Below, in pieces: positions 3,741-19,020 of a DNA stretch of 56,396 bases (position 1 is its first letter; the number at the start of each line of letters is the position of its first letter). The notes under the pieces were generated by a model. That model searched no databases, had not been told where the DNA came from, and saw only the letters and a program-made list of their open reading frames with translations. The DNA comes from Capnocytophaga sp. (lineage in GTDB: Bacteria > Bacteroidota > Bacteroidia > Flavobacteriales > Flavobacteriaceae), in contig NZ_JAUNKD010000019.1 in NCBI RefSeq assembly GCF_030532915.1, forward strand, positions 1-56,396. The letters are read 5' to 3'. The translations under genes and the position numbers were made by a program.

Positions 3741-4598
3741 ATGCAAAAAATATTGGTAACAGGCGGAGCGGGCTTTGTGGGTTCAAATCTTTGTAAAGCA
3801 TTGGTTCAAAATCCCGAAAATCAGGTTTTTTCGTTGGATAATTATTTTACCGGAAGCCGCGAAAACCACATAAAAGGCGTGCATTACATCGAAGGAAGCA
3901 CCGAGCATATTTTTGAATTGGTTGATTTTGCCCCCGACCTTATTTTTCATTTGGGCGAATACTCGCGGGTGGAACAAAGTTTTGATGATATCGATAAGGT
4001 TTTGCTTTTTAATAAGATAGGGACATCGAAGGTGCTGGAATTTTGCCGTCGTCATCGTTGTAAGTTGGTTTATGCCGGAAGCAGTACCAAGTTTGGCGAT
4101 GGGGGTATCGGCAGGAATCAAAGTCCGTATGCGTGGTCAAAATCATCAAACACCGAGCTTATTAAAAATTACGGCGATTGGTATGGGCTTAATTACGCGA
4201 TTGTCTATTTTTACAACGTATACGGGCAAGGTGAAATAAAGGAAGGAAAGTACGCCACGCTCATTGCACTTTTTGCCGAAAAAATGCGTCGGGGCGAAGC
4301 GCTTACCGTAGTTTCACCCGGCACGCAACAACGTAACTTTACGCATATTGACGATATCGTAAACGGATTGCTGCTCGTGGGCGAAAAGGGGCAAGGCGAT
4401 GAGTATGGCATCGGTAATAAAGAAACGTACACCGTGTTGGAAATTGCCCAAATGTTTGGCGGCACTATTGAGATGCTTCCCGAGCGAAAAGGAAACCGAA
4501 TGACCTCCGATGTGATTACCGAAAAAACCGAAGCCTTGGGCTGGAAAGCCGAAAAGTGCATCAAAACGTATATCAATCAGGTGCTTGACACGCTTTAA
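3741..4598 (+). CDS. NAD-dependent sugar-nucleotide epimerase/dehydratase
   Basis: Extended short-chain dehydrogenase of 285 residues. The NAD-binding motif GGAGFVGS is at 8-15, with a conserved YAGSS at 111-115 and the catalytic Tyr130-x3-Lys134 in SPYAWSKSS. It is shorter than typical GalE (about 335). Being next to ugd, it plausibly acts on UDP-glucose, UDP-glucuronate or another nucleotide sugar for surface polysaccharide. The exact reaction cannot be read from sequence. It is probably cotranscribed with ugd; no clear terminator follows before the convergent transglycosylase gene. Confidence 0.82.
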   Translation: MQKILVTGGAGFVGSNLCKALVQNPENQVFSLDNYFTGSRENHIKGVHYIEGSTEHIFELVDFAPDLIFHLGEYSRVEQSFDDIDKVLLFNKIGTSKVLEFCRRHRCKLVYAGSSTKFGDGGIGRNQSPYAWSKSSNTELIKNYGDWYGLNYAIVYFYNVYGQGEIKEGKYATLIALFAEKMRRGEALTVVSPGTQQRNFTHIDDIVNGLLLVGEKGQGDEYGIGNKETYTVLEIAQMFGGTIEMLPERKGNRMTSDVITEKTEALGWKAEKCIKTYINQVLDTL

Positions 4599-4659
4599 GG
4601 TTGCCGTCCGTTTGTGAACTATTGATTGTATTGTGTGTAATCCGGTGTTTTTTTTTTAA

Positions 4660-5625
4660 TTATTTCTTCGGAATTTTAATGTAGTATATTTTTCCGGATT
4701 TGTTGTCCAATTTTCGGTCTCTCAACCACGAATTGTGAATTTTGAGTTCTTTGTACGTGATGTTGTATTGTTTGGCAAAATCAGCCAAGTTTTCAATGTT
4801 GCTGTCCACTTTTATGATGTATGTTGGCACTTCGTTGTACAGGTGTTTTTTCTCGAAGTGAAACCCGTATTGTTTGGGGTTTTTCATAATTTCTTTCACG
4901 GCCAAAATCCTGAAAACATAGCGTGAGGTCTCGGAATTGAGCCATAAATCGTAATAATTGTTGGTTTGCTGTGCAGTGGTTTGACGCGTCATTCCGGCAA
5001 CTCCGGCGTTGTAGGCAGCGGCAGCCATCGTCCAACTTCCGGTGCTTTCTTTGGCTTTTTTTAGGTAATCACAAGCCGCTTGGGTAGCTTTTTCCAAGTG
5101 ATAACGCTCATCAACTGTGGCACTTACTTCCAATCCGTGTTCAATGGCGGCTGTCTTCATAAATTGCCAAAAACCGCTGGCTCCCGAAGGCGAAACCACG
5201 TCAAGTAGTCCACTTTCAATCAAGGCTAAATATTTAAAATCGTCCGGAATTCCGTTGCGTTTTAAAATCGGTTCAATTATGGGAAAATATTTGTTTGACC
5301 GCTTAATTAGCAGTAAACCATTGGATTGCCAATAGGTGTTTACCAAAAATTCCCTGTCAAGTCGCTCATACACATCAGGGATTTCCAGCGGAACCCGTTC
5401 ACCGGCAAAATCCATTTCGGTTGGTAAATCAACTGCGTGAACTTTGTATCCGTTCACGCGGTCAATATCCTGATTTTTAGAATAAATTCCATCGGCTGTG
5501 TCCGAGAAATCTTCTCTTTCAAAAATGTTGTTTTCTTCATTGGTGATTGCTACTGCATTAATCAAAAATCCTGATACACAGGCAACTCCCAGTCCGTAAA
5601 GTATATTTTGTATTGCTTTTTTCAT
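4660..5625 (-). CDS. Membrane-associated lytic transglycosylase (SLT domain, LysM-like tail)
   Basis: Murein lytic transglycosylase of 321 residues, similar in plan to MltD. It has an N-terminal hydrophobic signal or anchor segment (about 8-27), a spacer, then an SLT goose-lysozyme-type domain (about 105-235). The catalytic Glu137 is in ALIESGL, with the following SPSGASGFWQFM and AAAAYNAG motifs. The C-terminal 55 residues resemble a single LysM peptidoglycan-binding module (YIIKVDSNIENLADFAKQYN). It cleaves glycan strands to 1,6-anhydro ends in the periplasm. A one-mismatch promoter box (GATATTTG, 5686-5693) lies upstream, back to back with that of the KAS III gene. Confidence 0.9.
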   Translation of the reverse strand: MKKAIQNILYGLGVACVSGFLINAVAITNEENNIFEREDFSDTADGIYSKNQDIDRVNGYKVHAVDLPTEMDFAGERVPLEIPDVYERLDREFLVNTYWQSNGLLLIKRSNKYFPIIEPILKRNGIPDDFKYLALIESGLLDVVSPSGASGFWQFMKTAAIEHGLEVSATVDERYHLEKATQAACDYLKKAKESTGSWTMAAAAYNAGVAGMTRQTTAQQTNNYYDLWLNSETSRYVFRILAVKEIMKNPKQYGFHFEKKHLYNEVPTYIIKVDSNIENLADFAKQYNITYKELKIHNSWLRDRKLDNKSGKIYYIKIPKK

Positions 5626-8281: not shown

Positions 8282-8959
8282 ATGATTGACAAACGAATAT
8301 TAGACGATGATGACATCTTTGGTGACAATCACGCCACAACATCTGCCAAAACACCCTTGCGCCCCGATGCTTTTGACAAGCCGGACGCACAAAAAATAGT
8401 TGAGATAGAGAGCCACGTGCGCCAGATTATGCTCACGTTGGGCTTAGACCTAACCGACGACAGCCTCAAAGGAACGCCTAAACGCGTGGCGAAGATGTTC
8501 GTTGAGGAAATATTTGCAGGTTTGCACCCCAACCGCCGACCTTCGGCTTCCACTTTTGACAATAGTTACCGTTACGGAGAGATGTTAGTGGAGAAGAATA
8601 TCGTGGTGTATTCCACCTGTGAGCACCATTTGTTGCCCATAATCGGGAGAGCGCACGTCGGGTACATCTCTAACGGTAAGGTAATCGGGCTCTCGAAGAT
8701 GAACCGCATCGTTGAGTACTATGCCAAACGACCGCAGGTGCAAGAGCGACTAACCTTGCAAATCGTGCAAGAGATGCAGCAAGCCCTCGGAACCGAGGAT
8801 GTGGCGTGCGTAATTGACGCTAAACACCTCTGCGTGAACTCTCGCGGTATCAAAGATATCGAAAGCAGTACCGTTACTGCCGAGTTTGGCGGTCGATTTA
8901 AAGAATTAGCCCTTCGGAAGGAGTTTTTGGACTATATCAAATTAGAAACCAAATTTTAA
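8282..8959 (+). CDS. folE: GTP cyclohydrolase I
   Basis: Converts GTP to 7,8-dihydroneopterin triphosphate, the entry step for folate, biopterin and (through the PTPS fold) queuosine precursors. The 225-residue protein has the zinc ligands Cys113, His116 and Cys184 (STCEHHLLP and DAKHLCVNSRG) and the GLSKMNRIVEYYAKRPQVQE substrate segment. The first 35 residues are a variable acidic extension. It is followed after 15 bases by a pterin synthase gene on the same strand, so the two very probably form one transcript and act in sequence. Confidence 0.95.
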   Translation: MIDKRILDDDDIFGDNHATTSAKTPLRPDAFDKPDAQKIVEIESHVRQIMLTLGLDLTDDSLKGTPKRVAKMFVEEIFAGLHPNRRPSASTFDNSYRYGEMLVEKNIVVYSTCEHHLLPIIGRAHVGYISNGKVIGLSKMNRIVEYYAKRPQVQERLTLQIVQEMQQALGTEDVACVIDAKHLCVNSRGIKDIESSTVTAEFGGRFKELALRKEFLDYIKLETKF

Positions 8960-9583: not shown

Positions 9584-11029
9584 TTAGTCCGTTACGGTTA
9601 CTTTGATGCTACATTCAGTTGGATTTTCATTCTCCAAGCTGTTGGAGTAGCTTGCGCGTAGGGTAAACGTGCCTGTACGGGTTGCTTTTAATACTCCGTC
9701 ACGTACTTCTGCCAAATTACTTGGTTTTTCATCCCTTAAACTAAATCTGATAGTTACATACGGGCTTTGTGACTTACCATTACGTATTGTTTCAACCAGT
9801 TTATCTCCGTTGAAAGTAGTTACCTCCAATTGAAGTGACGTATTTTTCTTTATGGAAAGTTCTCCGTTGTTATCGAGATTGTTAATTTTTAGTTTGGTAA
9901 CCAGCTTAATAGCCTTGATGTTGATGCTGCTTTCCGCTCCGAAGCCATCATTAGCAGTGGCAGTGATGGTTGCTTCACCTTCTTGCAGTACTTCATAGTT
10001 ACCTGATTTATCAATTTTAACAACCGAAGGGTTGCTTGAACGCCACGAAAGTGTGTTATCACTAGCTCCGAACTGCGGGTTAGCCCCTGTAACATCTGCA
10101 TTGAGCTTTCCTTTATGACCTACTTCCGTTTTGAAACTATCTCCGAATATGATTTGTATAGACTGCACGGGGTTTACTGCCCAAATGGTTACTTGTGCCG
10201 ATACCTCACTGCCGTCGGTAGCCTTTGCCGTGATGGTAGCCTTACCGTTCGCAACGTTTGAAACGTGGATATTTCCGTCATTATCTACCCTTACAACACT
10301 TGGATTATCAGATGTCCACGTTAGTTGCTTGTTTGTGGCATTCTCAGGGTGGATTGTGTACTCCAACTTGGCACCTTTCCCGATAGGATATTTCACTTGT
10401 GAACCAAACTCAATACGGTTTACCAATACGTTTTTAGGGCTTACCGCCACGCCCAAAGCCTTTGTAGCCTTTCCGGAAGTAACTGTAACGGTTGCCGTAC
10501 CGGCTGCTTTGGCATTGATAGTGAAAACGTTGTCTTGGGTACTTACCGTAACGATGTTCGTATCTGATGATGTAACTTCAAACTTGGTAACTTTTTCACC
10601 ACTGACAGTAACTTGTTTGTTTTCGCCTTCAAGCATTGTAACGGGCGATTTCTCTGAAAGTTCAATGACGGGTAGCTCTTCCTCTTGGTTTTTAGGGTTT
10701 ACCGACACACTCAAAGCCTTTGTAGCCTTTCCGGAAGTAACTGTAACGGTTGCCGTACCGGCTGCTTTGGCATTGATAGTGAAAACTTTATCTTTGGTAC
10801 TTACCGTAACAATATTCGAATCGGATGTTGTAACTTCAATCTTCTCAACATATTGCCCGCTAACCGTAACTTCTTTGCTTTCGCCTTCAAGCATTGTAAC
10901 GGGTGATTTCTCTGAAAGTTCAATAATTGATATCTTTTCAATAACAATAGGTGCATCTTTCTCTTTGGTTGAACAGGCTACGACAGCCAGAAGTAAGGCA
11001 CAGAGTGCCCAGATTGCATTTTTTCTCAT
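9584..11029 (-). CDS. Lipoprotein with bacterial Ig-like (Big_2-type) repeats
   Basis: Secreted lipoprotein of 481 residues. The start at MRKNAIW gives a classical signal peptide ending in the lipobox AVVAC, with Cys19 as the lipidated residue. Two nearly identical 86-residue beta-sandwich repeats follow (about 27-190), each with SEKSPVTMLEGE and FTINAKAAGTATVTVTSGKATKAL. Then come two more diverged Big_2-like domains containing SDNPSVVRVDNDG and SSNPSVVKIDKSG, and a last beta-rich domain. Such proteins act as surface adhesins or scaffold components; no catalytic motif is visible. The residues after the cysteine (STKEKD) are rich in K, D and E, like the lipoprotein export signals of Capnocytophaga, so surface exposure is plausible. 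A promoter box lies at 11126-11133. Confidence 0.85.
   Translation of the reverse strand: MRKNAIWALCALLLAVVACSTKEKDAPIVIEKISIIELSEKSPVTMLEGESKEVTVSGQYVEKIEVTTSDSNIVTVSTKDKVFTINAKAAGTATVTVTSGKATKALSVSVNPKNQEEELPVIELSEKSPVTMLEGENKQVTVSGEKVTKFEVTSSDTNIVTVSTQDNVFTINAKAAGTATVTVTSGKATKALGVAVSPKNVLVNRIEFGSQVKYPIGKGAKLEYTIHPENATNKQLTWTSDNPSVVRVDNDGNIHVSNVANGKATITAKATDGSEVSAQVTIWAVNPVQSIQIIFGDSFKTEVGHKGKLNADVTGANPQFGASDNTLSWRSSNPSVVKIDKSGNYEVLQEGEATITATANDGFGAESSINIKAIKLVTKLKINNLDNNGELSIKKNTSLQLEVTTFNGDKLVETIRNGKSQSPYVTIRFSLRDEKPSNLAEVRDGVLKATRTGTFTLRASYSNSLENENPTECSIKVTVTD
10443..10958 (-). repeat. In-frame 258-bp tandem duplication inside the Ig-like gene
   Basis: Two adjacent units offset by 258 bp (86 codons). 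A run of 75 bases at 10454-10528 is identical to 10712-10786. The flanks of each unit differ at scattered positions, which suggests recent duplication or local gene conversion. Outer unit boundaries are approximate. Confidence 0.85.
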
Positions 11030-11125
11030 TTGTTTTATATTTAAGTAATCTTTATTATCCTGCTTTTGCGTGTCGGAATTCCCAAGTAGGGAAATCGCTA
11101 TTTTCCTTCGTGTGGAAAAAGTGCG

Positions 11126-11133
11126 CAAAGGTA
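11126..11133 (-). promoter_or_regulatory. Bacteroidota -7 box for the Ig-like lipoprotein
   Basis: TACCTTTG on the minus strand, 96 bases upstream of the lipoprotein start. It supports the MRKNAIW start, because a longer frame would begin at the promoter itself. Confidence 0.6.
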
Positions 11134-11212: not shown

Positions 11213-12031
11213 TTATCTGACCCACTTTTCCATCTGTGACTGCAATTTATAAGCCTCCGCTGCCGCTTTTTCAGCAAAATCACTACCCGAAGATGCAAAA
11301 AGTATGCCACGAGAGGAGTTTATCAGTAGTCCGATATCCTCATTGATGCCGTATTTGCATACCTCATCAAGGCTACCGCCCTGTGCGCCAACACCCGGAA
11401 CAAGCAAAAAATGCTTCGGAATTATTTTCCGAACTGCTTGCAGATAGCTTGCCTTGGTAGCACCTACCACATACATCAGGTTTTGAGCATTCTTCCACCC
11501 CTGTGAAGTGGTCAATACCTCTTTGTAAAGCTCCCTTTGACCTTCCTGAATTAGCTTCGTTTGGAAATCAAAAGCCCCTTCATTAGAGGTAAGTGCCAGC
11601 AGTATGGTTACTTTATCAGCAAACGACAGAAAAGGTTCCACCGAGTCTTTCCCCATATAGGGCGCAACCGTAACGCTGTCAAAATTCATATCTTCAAAAA
11701 AGGCTTTTGCATACATTGAAGACGTATTTCCGATATCACCCCGCTTAGCATCGGCTATGGTGAACATATCCGGATAAGTTTCCTTAATATACCTTACGGT
11801 ACGGTCAAGTGCTGTCCAGCCTTTTATTCCGTAGGCTTCATAGAATGCTGTATTGGGTTTGTAAGCCACGCAGTAGGGTGCGGTGGCATCGATAATGGCT
11901 TTGTTAAAGGCAAAGATAGGGCAATCGGCATCTAAAAGGTGCTTCGGAATTTTTTGCAAATCCACATCAAGTCCCACACATAAAAACGATTTCTTTCGGC
12001 GAATGACTTCAATTAGTTTTGAAATGGTCAT
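11213..12031 (-). CDS. pyrF: Orotidine 5'-phosphate decarboxylase (type 2)
   Basis: Last step of UMP synthesis: OMP to UMP plus CO2, in the cytosol. The 272-residue length fits the longer type 2 family. The active-site signature DAKRGD places Asp94, Lys96 and Asp99 as the catalytic residues, with Lys58 in YKPN and the phosphate-binding PGVGAQGG loop near the C-terminus. It begins 30 bases after the stop of the DUF6261 gene and probably shares its transcript, since no closer TAnnTTTG box was found. Confidence 0.94.
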
Positions 12032-12061
12032 AATAATACAATCTACTGGTTTAGTGCTTAC

Positions 12062-12847
12062 TTAATTGCTCTCGGTCATTTCGTTACTACCCTCAATATC
12101 TGCTGAACTGCTTATGGATTTGTTGCTATTAGCCTGAGCTAAGCGTTGTTTATTTGCAGAAATCGTCTCGGCAATCAATCCGTTGAGTAAATCGATGAAT
12201 TTTTTACTCTCGGCAGACTGTTGTAGCAGGTAAGTGGCGTATGCACACTTACTGATGTACTTATAGAGTGCATTGGCTTCACGCCGTACTTTATTGGTGT
12301 TAATTAAGGCATTGGTAAGCTTGTCTTCCCGTCTTCCAGAAACGTGCTTTTGGTAGTTTTTATTGGCTTCTTCAAGTGCCTCGATAGTCTTTTCAAAGCC
12401 GATGATGCTTGCGTAAGGCGCCAGATTAGGCTTACGGATGTCGATAAGCAAGCCGGTAATGGCATTTGTTTTCTGGCGGGTAGGGATGCTTTGAATCCCA
12501 ATATAGTTTTTTAGGTTTATGTATAAGATATCGGCAGCTTCCTTACGTTTCGGGTCGATGTTGTTGCGTTCAACACGAAGAACGGACATTAGGTACACAA
12601 TGTACTTGCTTCGTTCTTTGTCATAATCGGCAATCTTGGGGGTTTCGGTACTAAAACGTGTCTGTTTCGTAGCTTCGGTAAGGTCATTGAGGAAGCCTTT
12701 CATTGAAGTGATAACACTTTCCTCTACATTGATAGCCTCAGGGGTAGTTTCCTTAATCAAACCAAGTAAGGTTTCAACAAACTGAGCATACTCCAAATTG
12801 TTTAGAGAGTCTAATGTGATAGACTTGATGTTTAAGATATTTTTCAT
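12062..12847 (-). CDS. DUF6261 family protein, function unknown
   Basis: All-helical-looking protein of 261 residues that resembles the DUF6261 family of Bacteroidota. There is no signal peptide, membrane segment or catalytic motif. The pattern is amphipathic helices: an N-terminal half with a charged centre (KERSKYIVYLMSVLRVER), a central RKPNLAPYASIIGF segment, a helix rich in Lys/Arg/Asn (KNYQKHVSGRREDKL), and a low-complexity Ser/Asn/Glu tail. It lies between prfA and pyrF, with its own promoter box at 12880-12887. The intergenic DNA upstream is full of degenerate 21-22 bp repeats. No function is proposed; the family call is from general resemblance. Confidence 0.7.
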   Translation of the reverse strand: MKNILNIKSITLDSLNNLEYAQFVETLLGLIKETTPEAINVEESVITSMKGFLNDLTEATKQTRFSTETPKIADYDKERSKYIVYLMSVLRVERNNIDPKRKEAADILYINLKNYIGIQSIPTRQKTNAITGLLIDIRKPNLAPYASIIGFEKTIEALEEANKNYQKHVSGRREDKLTNALINTNKVRREANALYKYISKCAYATYLLQQSAESKKFIDLLNGLIAETISANKQRLAQANSNKSISSSADIEGSNEMTESN

Positions 12848-12879
12848 AAGAACACTTTTTTTGGGTTATTTTTAGATGA

Positions 12880-12887
12880 CAAACGTA
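12880..12887 (-). promoter_or_regulatory. Bacteroidota -7 box for DUF6261-pyrF
   Basis: TACGTTTG on the minus strand, 33 bases upstream of the DUF6261 start. Confidence 0.6.
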
Positions 12888-13009
12888 CAAAAATAGTTTT
12901 ATAATAGCAATAAGTTTAACGAAAGATTAACATTTGAGGTGTTTTGTGATGGGGAATATGCTTTTAAAAGTAACCTAATTAGGCTTTAAGTGCTTAAATG
13001 TAGTTCGAT

Positions 13010-13245
13010 ATAACTTCTAAATATACCTGTGAGTTGTTAAAATATTATTCCTATCTTTTAGGAAGGAATACTAAACTGCCTTAATGTAGTTTCCTTATTC
13101 TTAGGAAGGATACTTTTTGTTAGTAAAGTTTGAAAGATATAACTTAGGAATATAACTTTGGGTACTTAAAAGTGCTTTCTGAATATTTAGGAATGTGACT
13201 TTGTCTATATTGGCTTAGGTGACTAACTATTATGAATGTATTTTT
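13010..13245. repeat. Degenerate ~21.5-bp tandem repeat array, 43-bp dimer period (array A)
   Basis: About ten units of a diverged repeat with core TTAGGAAnnTAnCTTTG. Unit starts fall near 13015, 13037, 13058, 13081, 13101, 13120, 13144, 13166, 13187 and 13215. Units with an intact GGAA alternate with weaker ones (TTAATGTAGTTT, TTAGTAAAGTTTG, TTAAAAGTGCTTT). The GGAA starts at 13061, 13104, 13147 and 13190 are exactly 43 bases apart. The 461-base gap (12848-13308) has no gene; besides the array it holds the DUF6261 promoter box and the prfA terminator. Confidence 0.7.
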
Positions 13246-13249
13246 AGAT

Positions 13250-13284
13250 ATAAAAAGCCCGCTTGCAAGGTTATTGCAAGCGGG
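13250..13284 (-). terminator. prfA terminator
   Basis: Perfect 11-bp GC-rich stem CCCGCTTGCAA (13258-13268) with 13274-13284 and a 5-base loop. Read on the minus strand it ends in GCTTTTTATA, 25 bases after the prfA stop. It separates prfA from the DUF6261-pyrF unit. Confidence 0.85.
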
Positions 13285-13308
13285 TTCTTTTAAGTGGAAT
13301 ATGAGATA

Positions 13309-14382
13309 TTAGAAAACATCACTTTCTTTGAGCTTCTCGGTGTTTTCGGCGAGTTGCAGTTCGTCAATCAAGCGCTGTACGTCGCCATTGATAACATTCT
13401 GCAAATCGTATAATGTAAGCCCGATACGATGGTCGGTAACGCGCCCTTGCGGATAATTATAGGTGCGAATCTTGGCACTGCGGTCACCGCTTGAAACCAT
13501 ACTCTTACGAAGCGCGGAGTCGGCTTCCATTTTTTTGGCTAATTCCATTTCGTAGAGTCGTGAACGAAGCACTTTCAGAGCTTTATCAAGGTTTTTGTGT
13601 TGTGACTTTTCGTCCTGACAGCGAACCTCGATGCCCGTAGGTATGTGCTGCAACTGTATAGCTGAATATGTGGTGTTCACGGACTGCCCTCCGGGACCTG
13701 TGGAGGTCGTTCTGATGATTTTAACGTCTGCCATATCCAGTTCCACGTCAAATTCTTCGGCTTCGGGGAGTACCATCACGGTCGCCGCCGAGGTGTGCAC
13801 CCGCCCTTGGGTCTCGGTCTGCGGTACCCGCTGCACCCTGTGAACGCCTGCTTCGAACTTCAACGTGCCATAGACGTTATCTCCGGTAACCTCAAAGATG
13901 ATTTCTTTGTACCCACCCGAAGTTCCTTCGTTAAAATCCATCACTGAAGTGTTCCAACCTTTTGATTGGCAGTACTTGGTGTACATTCGGTAAAGGTCGC
14001 CGGCAAAGATTGACGCCTCGTCGCCCCCTGTGCCGGCACGGATTTCCATCACGGCGTTCTTGGCATCTTCGGGGTCTTTGGGTATGAGCATAAATCGGAT
14101 GTCTTCTTCGAGCTTTGGTAGCTTTTCTTTGGCTTCTTCGAGTTGCATTTTTGCCATTTCTACCATTTCGGGGTCAGACTCGCTGGCTATGATTTCTTCG
14201 GCTTCACTGATGTTTCCGGTGATGATGATGTACTCTTCCCGCTTGTCAATGAGTTCTTTTAGTTCTTTGTACTCTTTATTTAGCTGAATGTACCGCTTTT
14301 GGTCGGCAATGATGTCCGGTTGAATGATAAGGTCGGATACTTCATCAAACTTTTGTTTTACGATATTTAGTCTGTCAAGCAT
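13309..14382 (-). CDS. prfA: Peptide chain release factor 1
   Basis: Class I release factor of 357 residues that reads UAA and UAG and triggers peptide release. The GGQ catalytic tripeptide is at 231-233 within TGPGGQSVN, and the RF1-type anticodon tripeptide PxT is present as Pro187-Gln-Thr189 in [12 protein letters not shown]2 would have SPF here, so the RF1 call is firm. The first 110 residues form the helical N-terminal domain. It has its own promoter box (14425-14432) and a strong terminator (13250-13284), so it appears monocistronic. Confidence 0.96.
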
Positions 14383-14591: not shown

Positions 14592-14741
14592 GTTGGCATT
14601 TGCTTTTTCAGTGCCTTTGAATTACGCTTGTATTATTTAGGAAGCTAACTTTGTATAGGCTGAAATTGCTCTTGTGTCCTTTCGGAACGATACTTTGACT
14701 TCCTGAAATTTGATTCTAATTTTTATGAACCTACCTTTGTT
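14592..14741. repeat. Degenerate ~21.5-bp tandem repeat array, 43-bp dimer period (array B)
   Basis: Same family as the array at 13010-13245. The word TGAA(A)TT recurs at 14618, 14661 and 14704, exactly 43 bases apart. Between these lie GGAA at 14640 and 14684 and TGAA at 14726, heading TTAGGAAGCTAACTTTG, TCGGAACGATACTTTG and TATGAACCTACCTTTG. Weaker units may reach back to about 14545. The 389-base gap between aat and prfA contains no gene and otherwise only the prfA promoter box. Confidence 0.7.
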
Positions 14742-14771
14742 GGGTTGTTAGCCCATTTTTGAATCGTTATT

Positions 14772-18891: not shown

Positions 18892-18949
18892 CTAACCCAA
18901 AAAGATTGTTAATTCTTCCCTCCTCACATCAAAACGAACTGACTATAAT

Positions 18950-19020
18950 AGGGTTCATTAAGGTATTAAATAGTGTTCATTAAGGTATTTAATAGTGTTC
19001 GGAAGGGTATTTTATTATTT
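18950..19020. repeat. Three 22-bp direct repeats (array C)
   Basis: TTCATTAAGGTATT at 18954 and 18976 and TTCGGAAGGGTATT at 18998, exactly 22 bases apart, each preceded by ATAGgG or ATAGTG. The third unit looks like the TTCGGAACGATACTTTG unit of array B, so this is probably the same repeat family with a different core. The 307-base gap between the convergent mtaB and PBP1A genes otherwise holds only the terminator at 19141-19179. Confidence 0.75.

Follow-up and report, generated by a model that had tools for sequence, protein, structure and literature searches.

DUF6261 genes of Bacteroidota usually adjoin a private ~42-bp repeat array, a candidate DNA target of the encoded protein

Between prfA and a DUF6261 gene of Capnocytophaga sp. 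lies a tandem array with strict spacing, and the question is what such a repeat does there. The window (the whole stretch of DNA analysed, 56,396 nucleotides) holds this array, hereafter array 1, as well as a second one, array 2, that the preliminary description had overlooked. That description regarded array 1 as about ten direct units of 21.5 bp organized in 43-bp dimers, and offered three ideas for it: promoter-like sites, a decoy for RNA polymerase, or binding sites for a dedicated protein.

The genes prfA, DUF6261, pyrF, and aat all lie on the minus strand (Table 1). The two genes that flank the DUF6261 cassette in the window, prfA and pyrF, are adjacent in all 10 other-genus loci examined and in one congener (L045), where no DUF6261 gene was found. 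In the remaining 18 congener prfA loci, viewed over ~1.5 kb each, pyrF was not seen, and a DUF6261 gene stood beside prfA in none of the 19. The Bacteroidota promoter consensus is TTG-N(17-21)-TAnnTTTG, with TAnnTTTG as the -7 box. Exact matches to it were present at -56 to -74 in 9 of 67 DUF6261 loci, including the window, a count made without a shuffled control. In the window, the putative promoter is located at -63; array 1 would therefore lie upstream of it, at a place suited to operators or activating sites, and not in the message. Further away, at 10430-10924, we observed a 258-bp tandem duplication within a gene with a Big_2 domain (9584-11128).

Table 1 Features of the window around the DUF6261 gene
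Feature	Position	Strand	Remarks
pyrF, flanking gene	11213..12031	-	30 bp 3' of DUF6261
Whole cassette (array 1, promoter, DUF6261)	12032..13308	-	1.3 kb, between prfA and pyrF
DUF6261 gene (window locus L157)	12062..12847	-	261 aa, PF19775, E 1.7e-34
Putative DUF6261 promoter	12880..12910	-	TTG-N20-TACGTTTG; at -63, between array 1 and start codon
Array 1, degenerate 43-bp tandem palindromic units	13015..13250	.	Autocorrelation, dyad test
Terminator-like inverted repeat after prfA	13252..13290	-	Bounds array 1
prfA, flanking gene	13309..14382	-	
Array 2, three units with the core of array 1	14618..14745	.	Orphan, between prfA and aat

Autocorrelation of positions 13010-13245 was strongest at lag 86 (z 5.5), followed by lag 43 (z 5.1). 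In each of three stretches, the top lag, either 86 or 43, lay above the highest value that any of 1000 dinucleotide shuffles reached over lags 5-109. The 43-bp period reported earlier was thus confirmed, as were the GGAA words starting at 13061, 13104, 13147, and 13190, exactly 43 bp apart. The direct 21.5-bp repeat is absent, with lags 21 and 22 flat (z between -0.9 and 0.3), and about ten units could not be recovered: the units of array 1 start at 13058, 13101, 13144, and 13187, followed by a weaker one at 13230, with a trace at 13015. When array 1 was stacked at period 43, the unit matrix was self-complementary about an axis (z 4.8; 0 of 2000 column shuffles were as good), and a separate run gave dyad z values of 3.6-4.7. 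Dyad axes recur every 21.5 bp, e.g., at 13056, 13077.5, and 13099, because any dyad in a periodic sequence implies another at a distance of half a unit. Since array 1 is strand-symmetric, the weaker units in between of the preliminary description are best read as inverted partners, and the 43 bp as a head-to-head pair of ~21-bp half-sites. Tandem Repeats Finder at score 30 missed array 1, which is therefore degenerate.

The three units of array 2 start at 14637, 14681, and 14723 (spacing 44 and 42), no DUF6261 gene directly adjoins them, and taken alone they revealed no dyad (p 0.81). In the congener G005, array 2 is missing and the prfA-aat spacer, measured to where the aat match ends, is about 190 bp long, versus 389 bp in the window. 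The exact core has three matches in the whole genome, all inside the window (13144, 13187, and 14637). With up to two mismatches, the genome-wide scan proposed earlier as a check returned 48 matches versus 48 for the reversed pattern; without any excess, the core is therefore not spread through the genome, and the class becomes visible only by period and gene context. Core sequence searches beyond the window gave nothing convincing among the matches listed, except one 43-bp array similar to array 2 in the congener G019 (L070, 1498-1620); its contig carries none of the best 14 of the 15 DUF6261 matches of G019. Core matches at 8913/8956 and on C8 were rejected as coding by eye, none of eight short weak matches in plasmid DNA was kept, and viral contigs contained one core-pattern match.

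The own genome, 2.66 Mb in size, contains 17 DUF6261 copies. Among 20 genomes of the genus, 14 carry the family with 1 to 29 copies each and six have none; it is present in 6 of 199 genomes of the family sample, in 12 of 395 of the phylum sample (11 above the cut-off), and in 56 of 118 genomes of a genus taken to be Chryseobacterium from the matches of its loci to named records of that genus. For every gene, we determined the strongest repeat among 51 lags (20 to 70). Within 700 bp upstream of DUF6261, the best lag was 41-43 in 51 of 67 loci, compared to 10 of 67 downstream and 8 of 70 inside the gene bodies; the window locus showed lag 43 with z 5.2. For named Chryseobacterium-group loci of up to 12.7 kb, the best upstream lag was 41 or 42 in 22 of 24; the upstream peak was the sole peak of the locus above z 6.5 in 15 of these 24 and stayed below 6.5 in seven. 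A set of 115 distinct loci, mostly from Chryseobacterium and freed of short genes and duplicates, gave a best lag of 41 or 42 within 450 bp upstream in 103. This set contains most of the 24 named loci together with the phylum-sample loci and partly overlaps the set of 67, and as some loci are close relatives, the counts are not independent. Genes starting near a sequence end (e.g., L147, L153, L159, and L171) and two loci without a usable gene (L143 and L201) were excluded before counting. Even in another order, two loci of Parabacteroides distasonis had lag 42 (z 5.8 and 13.5).

Upstream of control genes, peaks at 41-43 bp were rare. The best lag was 41-43 for 9 of 51 other Chryseobacterium-group genes, none at z>=5, and for 4 of 76 genes from 400 kb of the own genome, one at z>=5. 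An earlier Chryseobacterium control (17 of 56 with best lag 41-43, seven at z>=5) had been contaminated by genes that share their upstream region with DUF6261 and was replaced. Tandem Repeats Finder reported rows at 41-43 bp or two to three times that length in 28 of 51 DUF6261 loci, the window locus being too degenerate to register, and a single 44-bp locus in 385 kb of control DNA. The signal was missing in 16 of the 67 loci (41-43, 700 bp) and in 12 of the 115 (41 or 42, 450 bp); in L148 and L150 it was found downstream only. In those Bacteroidota that carry them, DUF6261 genes usually adjoin a row of ~42-bp repeats, with repeat sequences that vary between genes.

Several loci showed additional features. 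A 172-bp tandem repeat (4 x 43) follows the DUF6261 gene of L180 (2190-2625). In the own genome, long palindromes of the form ACCTTTGTCAAAG..CTTTGACAAAGG occur in the arrays of L144, L149, L154, and L155, and the period is doubled or tripled (84, 127 bp) in L149, L154, and L144. Five Chryseobacterium arrays (L212, L214, L216, L218, and L226) are preceded by a short upstream gene with a helix-turn-helix-like start and the common C-terminus EQYEERIKEL.., both recognized by eye. A phage-labelled, unannotated faecal record (MT837725.1) weakly resembles DUF6261 at 4253-4900 (25% identity, E 1e-7).

The units of different loci look unrelated by eye, close paralogues excepted; across loci, the unit length is kept while the unit sequence changes freely, an unusual combination. 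This bears on another possible origin of the array, a mobile or recombinational element similar to REP or BIME sequences that DUF6261 would move or amplify. Many scattered copies, from 0 to 29 per congener, would fit such an element, as would the position of the window cassette between two genes that are neighbours in other genera; in BIMEs, the orientation of the REPs alternates, and REPs have associated tyrosine transposases, as described in an excerpt of PMC2817692. Considering that each unit sequence is private to its locus instead of common across the genome, and that the protein matched no transposase family in Pfam, Y1 transposase included, we regard this origin as unlikely.

Palindromy extends beyond the window. 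A dyad at p<=0.05 was found in 28 of 42 arrays versus 3 of 42 control stretches from gene bodies, leaving 14 arrays without one at this threshold. This whole-unit test was adopted after a contiguous-stem test on the consensus units of Tandem Repeats Finder had proved weak (8 of 40 at p<=0.05). Folding scores relative to shuffles averaged z -3.33 and -3.27 on the two strands (control -0.75), and values below -2 were reached by 28 and 28 of the 42 arrays on the respective strands and by 6 of 42 controls. Self-complementarity is therefore equal on both strands, as expected for DNA sites. Alternatively, transcription of the array might yield a repeated, structured RNA by which DUF6261 is controlled or neutralized, as in type III toxin-antitoxin systems. 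The repeats precede one gene, differ strongly between loci, and have self-complementary units, and type III antitoxin repeats likewise vary greatly in sequence and length according to an excerpt of PMC4627078. We rejected the RNA reading because both strands fold alike and the signal is not strand-specific. The putative promoters recognizable close to the gene in 9 of 67 loci, as well as the two loci with an array downstream only, also speak against an RNA, and no nuclease family was matched in Pfam, NCBIfam, or PDB sequences; overall, such an RNA seems improbable.

Promoter-like sites or a polymerase decoy, as suggested in the preliminary description, would predict -7 boxes in the units. Of the roughly five units of array 1, a single one has an exact TAnnTTTG, at 13153, and array 2 has it in two of its three units, at 14646 and 14732; TTTG stands 20 and 19 bases upstream of the boxes at 13153 and 14732. 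Five other arrays of the 42 contain two or three boxes on one strand, and the 42 arrays together hold 21 boxes versus 9.5 expected from shuffles, although repetition inflates the former number. Yet 30 of the 42 DUF6261 arrays have no exact box on either strand and 12 have one or more, while the ~42-bp period is common to the arrays. In addition, the boxes in the window face away from prfA, DUF6261, pyrF, and aat, and the putative DUF6261 promoter is located elsewhere. Arrays of sigma-type promoter sites or polymerase decoys are thus a poor fit and very improbable. Of the three earlier ideas, binding sites for a dedicated protein fit best, and the adjacent DUF6261 protein is the likely candidate; the earlier interpretation is therefore partly supported.

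If the DUF6261 protein does bind its array, changes in one partner might be mirrored in the other. We compared both in a subfamily of 30 loci, different from that of the window, whose proteins start with MNxI-x-L-x-x-LRNAEYLQ. Arm classes were defined by the bases before GAAA in the palindrome arm and were set after the data had been seen. Proteins with L or M at residue 8 were accompanied by CCG, CGG, or GCG before GAAA, and those with K or S by CCC or TCC, or by AGA or TGA, before GAAA. This rule held in 29 of 30 loci, the exception being L228; for L228, L268, L225, and L273, the arm was assigned from one to three counts. A tree calculated without residues 1-14 (FastTree, no support values) shows 9 changes of arm type, 8 of residue class, and 9 of the combined state, which means that arm and residue changes mostly coincide. 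Specificity would appear to have switched in parallel several times, with about 8 changes.

Among all alignment columns, columns 8, 7, and 5 sorted the arms best, with 1, 2, and 3 errors of at most 14. Column 51, with ten residue types, made 4 errors (p 0.006), and a weaker association was found for columns 3 and 18 (7 errors each, p 0.017 and 0.028). Third positions of codons 2, 4, 6, 8, and 9-20 did not track the arms (9-14 errors); those of codons 3, 5, and 7 gave 6, 3, and 5 errors, the one in codon 5 belonging to the D/E difference. Most third codon positions thus do not follow the arms, which argues against a 5' block carried by recombination, although columns 3 and 18 are weakly associated as well. 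The proteins of L230 and L231 provide a natural comparison, as they are 93% identical, with R7T and M8K among the 16 alignment positions that distinguish them, and their arms are mostly CCGGAAA versus CCCGAAA. This suggests that each DUF6261 protein recognizes its own array.

We consider it likely that the DUF6261 protein recognizes the array next to its gene as its cognate DNA target, with control of that gene as the likeliest role. Each DUF6261 gene would form a cassette that consists of a private upstream ~42-bp palindromic array, then a promoter, and then the gene. A unit would comprise two ~21-bp half-sites placed head to head, each spanning two helical turns, and DUF6261 would most likely bind as a dimer or higher oligomer, aligned along a single face of the helix, and would read the palindrome arms through its N-terminal segment. 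Own-gene control appears likeliest because the arrays lie just upstream of the gene (and, where one is recognizable, of its promoter) and because the neighbouring genes vary, as judged by eye for 15 Chryseobacterium-group loci; local effects on neighbours are also conceivable.

Arrays built on ~21 bp are not restricted to DUF6261 loci. DUF6261-free DNA of the own genome (400 kb) had 16 non-coding peaks at z>=5.5, exclusively at lags 21, 22, 42, and 63; two of these are runs of N. Within the window, a 22-bp tandem array of about three copies (18946-19012) separates genes for 441 and 766 aa; no adjoining small protein was seen, and the array is probably one of this genome's ~21n-bp arrays. At least 3 of the 14 non-N arrays adjoin small proteins, one of them a PQLLE protein (NCBIfam NF052641, uncharacterized) and two of a related kind of ~105 aa. 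The latter two (L325, near 900, and L329, near 19410) share 35% identity and lie directly downstream of 42- and 21-bp arrays, respectively; one of them has a weak similarity to half of PQLLE (E 1.2e-4, which does not pass the cut-off).

PQLLE loci (L345, L347, L349, and L351-L380) were analysed with four incomplete ones left out, and weak loci as well as L378, with a run of N, are counted in the resulting 29. Their best upstream lags were 21 (13 loci), 41-42 (9), and 62-63 (5), i.e., 27 of 29, and 21 of 29 reached z>=5 upstream. On the downstream side, such lags were best in 6 of 29. Akin to DUF6261, PQLLE is thus a small protein with upstream ~21n-bp arrays, and it occurs in the same genomes: in the 20 genus genomes, both families are absent from five and both have at least three copies in ten. 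In contrast to those of DUF6261, PQLLE arrays often have a base period of 21 bp and are direct, mostly without palindromy (2 of 20 at p<=0.05). The one PQLLE member scanned had no DUF6261 match in Pfam, and both kinds of protein are apparently helical, as judged from their sequences. No open-licence PubMed Central paper was found for the name PQLLE.

The abundance of such arrays raises the possibility that ~21n-bp repeats simply form by slippage in intergenic DNA and are functionless, with DUF6261 as a bystander. The 14 peaks at a distance from DUF6261 would agree with this, and so would the upstream peaks at z>=5 in 9 of the 76 control genes from the same 400 kb, all at such lags (eight of them at 21, 22, or 63). 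Slippage in intergenic DNA would not explain why 41-43-bp peaks are rare upstream of control genes, why the arrays are concentrated upstream and not downstream of DUF6261, or why protein and array vary together. Moreover, at least 3 of the 14 arrays adjoin small proteins of one related group, and PQLLE genes have upstream arrays of their own. We therefore consider functionless slippage very unlikely, if somewhat less so than promoter or decoy sites.

Returning to recognition by the adjacent protein, a broader proposal covers both families, and we see the chances for and against it as about balanced. Bacteroidota would carry cassettes, up to dozens per genome, of a small DNA-binding protein (DUF6261, PQLLE, and perhaps more) and a private array on a 21-bp, two-turn ruler; the pairs would co-diverge into recognition systems that are independent of one another, the repeat arm being read through a code of N-terminal residues, and orphan arrays such as array 2 and some ~21-bp arrays would be distant targets. 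Two protein families without known function, DUF6261 and PQLLE, thereby gain a testable role. Natural pairs with apparent parallel switches of specificity would give a ready-made protein-DNA recognition code, and the question arises why some genomes hold 20-30 such pairs and close relatives none.

To place the arrays among known systems, we compared their defining features. No description of this array class was found in open-licence PubMed Central literature, in line with the earlier remark that no named repeat class fits; there, the name DUF6261 matched an excerpt of a paper on daptomycin in streptococci. Searches of defence and phage libraries gave weak matches only, the best match among PDB sequences had E 0.028, and DUF6261 was the sole Pfam family common to the 30 members scanned. 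In plasmid iterons, sites spaced by ~21 bp lie upstream of the gene for the Rep protein that binds them. DUF6261 arrays resemble iterons in the ~21-bp spacing upstream of the gene for a (predicted) binding protein, but they are chromosomal, lack a Rep family match, and belong to many paralogues per genome. REP and BIME elements are regularly spaced palindromes in alternating orientation with an associated protein (excerpt of PMC2817692). Regular palindromes plus an associated protein are also found here; unlike REP/BIME-RAYT, DUF6261 arrays are private to each gene and not one sequence spread over the genome, and their protein has no transposase family match.

In type III toxin-antitoxin systems (ToxIN, CptIN, and TenpIN), a single protein gene follows tandem repeats that differ widely by locus, as an excerpt of PMC4627078 describes. 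DUF6261 loci share the one protein gene preceded by divergent repeats. They differ in that the array lies upstream of the promoter where one is recognizable, shows DNA symmetry, and keeps a fixed period near 42 bp, and no ToxN-, CptN-, or TenpN-like toxin was matched. The F-plasmid sopC (parS) consists of twelve 43-bp tandem repeats with 16-bp inverted-repeat motifs that are bound by the partner protein (excerpt of PMC6238139). Array 1 resembles this ParB/SopB system in its 43-bp repeats with inverted motifs. Unlike sopC, DUF6261 arrays are chromosomal, present many times per genome, and different in unit sequence at each locus; the DUF6261 family has no match to ParB, and the neighbours of the window array are prfA, pyrF, and aat, with no ParA or ParB genes beside it.

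Against every known family considered, the arrays thus lack one or more of the defining features tested, and we define the DUF6261-associated ~42-bp palindromic array here as a class. The window locus displays its features, namely, an upstream period of 41-43 bp, strand symmetry of array 1, and a putative promoter between array and start codon, the latter being exact in only 9 of 67 loci. By analogy, such an array would work most like a partition centromere such as sopC or like an autoregulated operator array.
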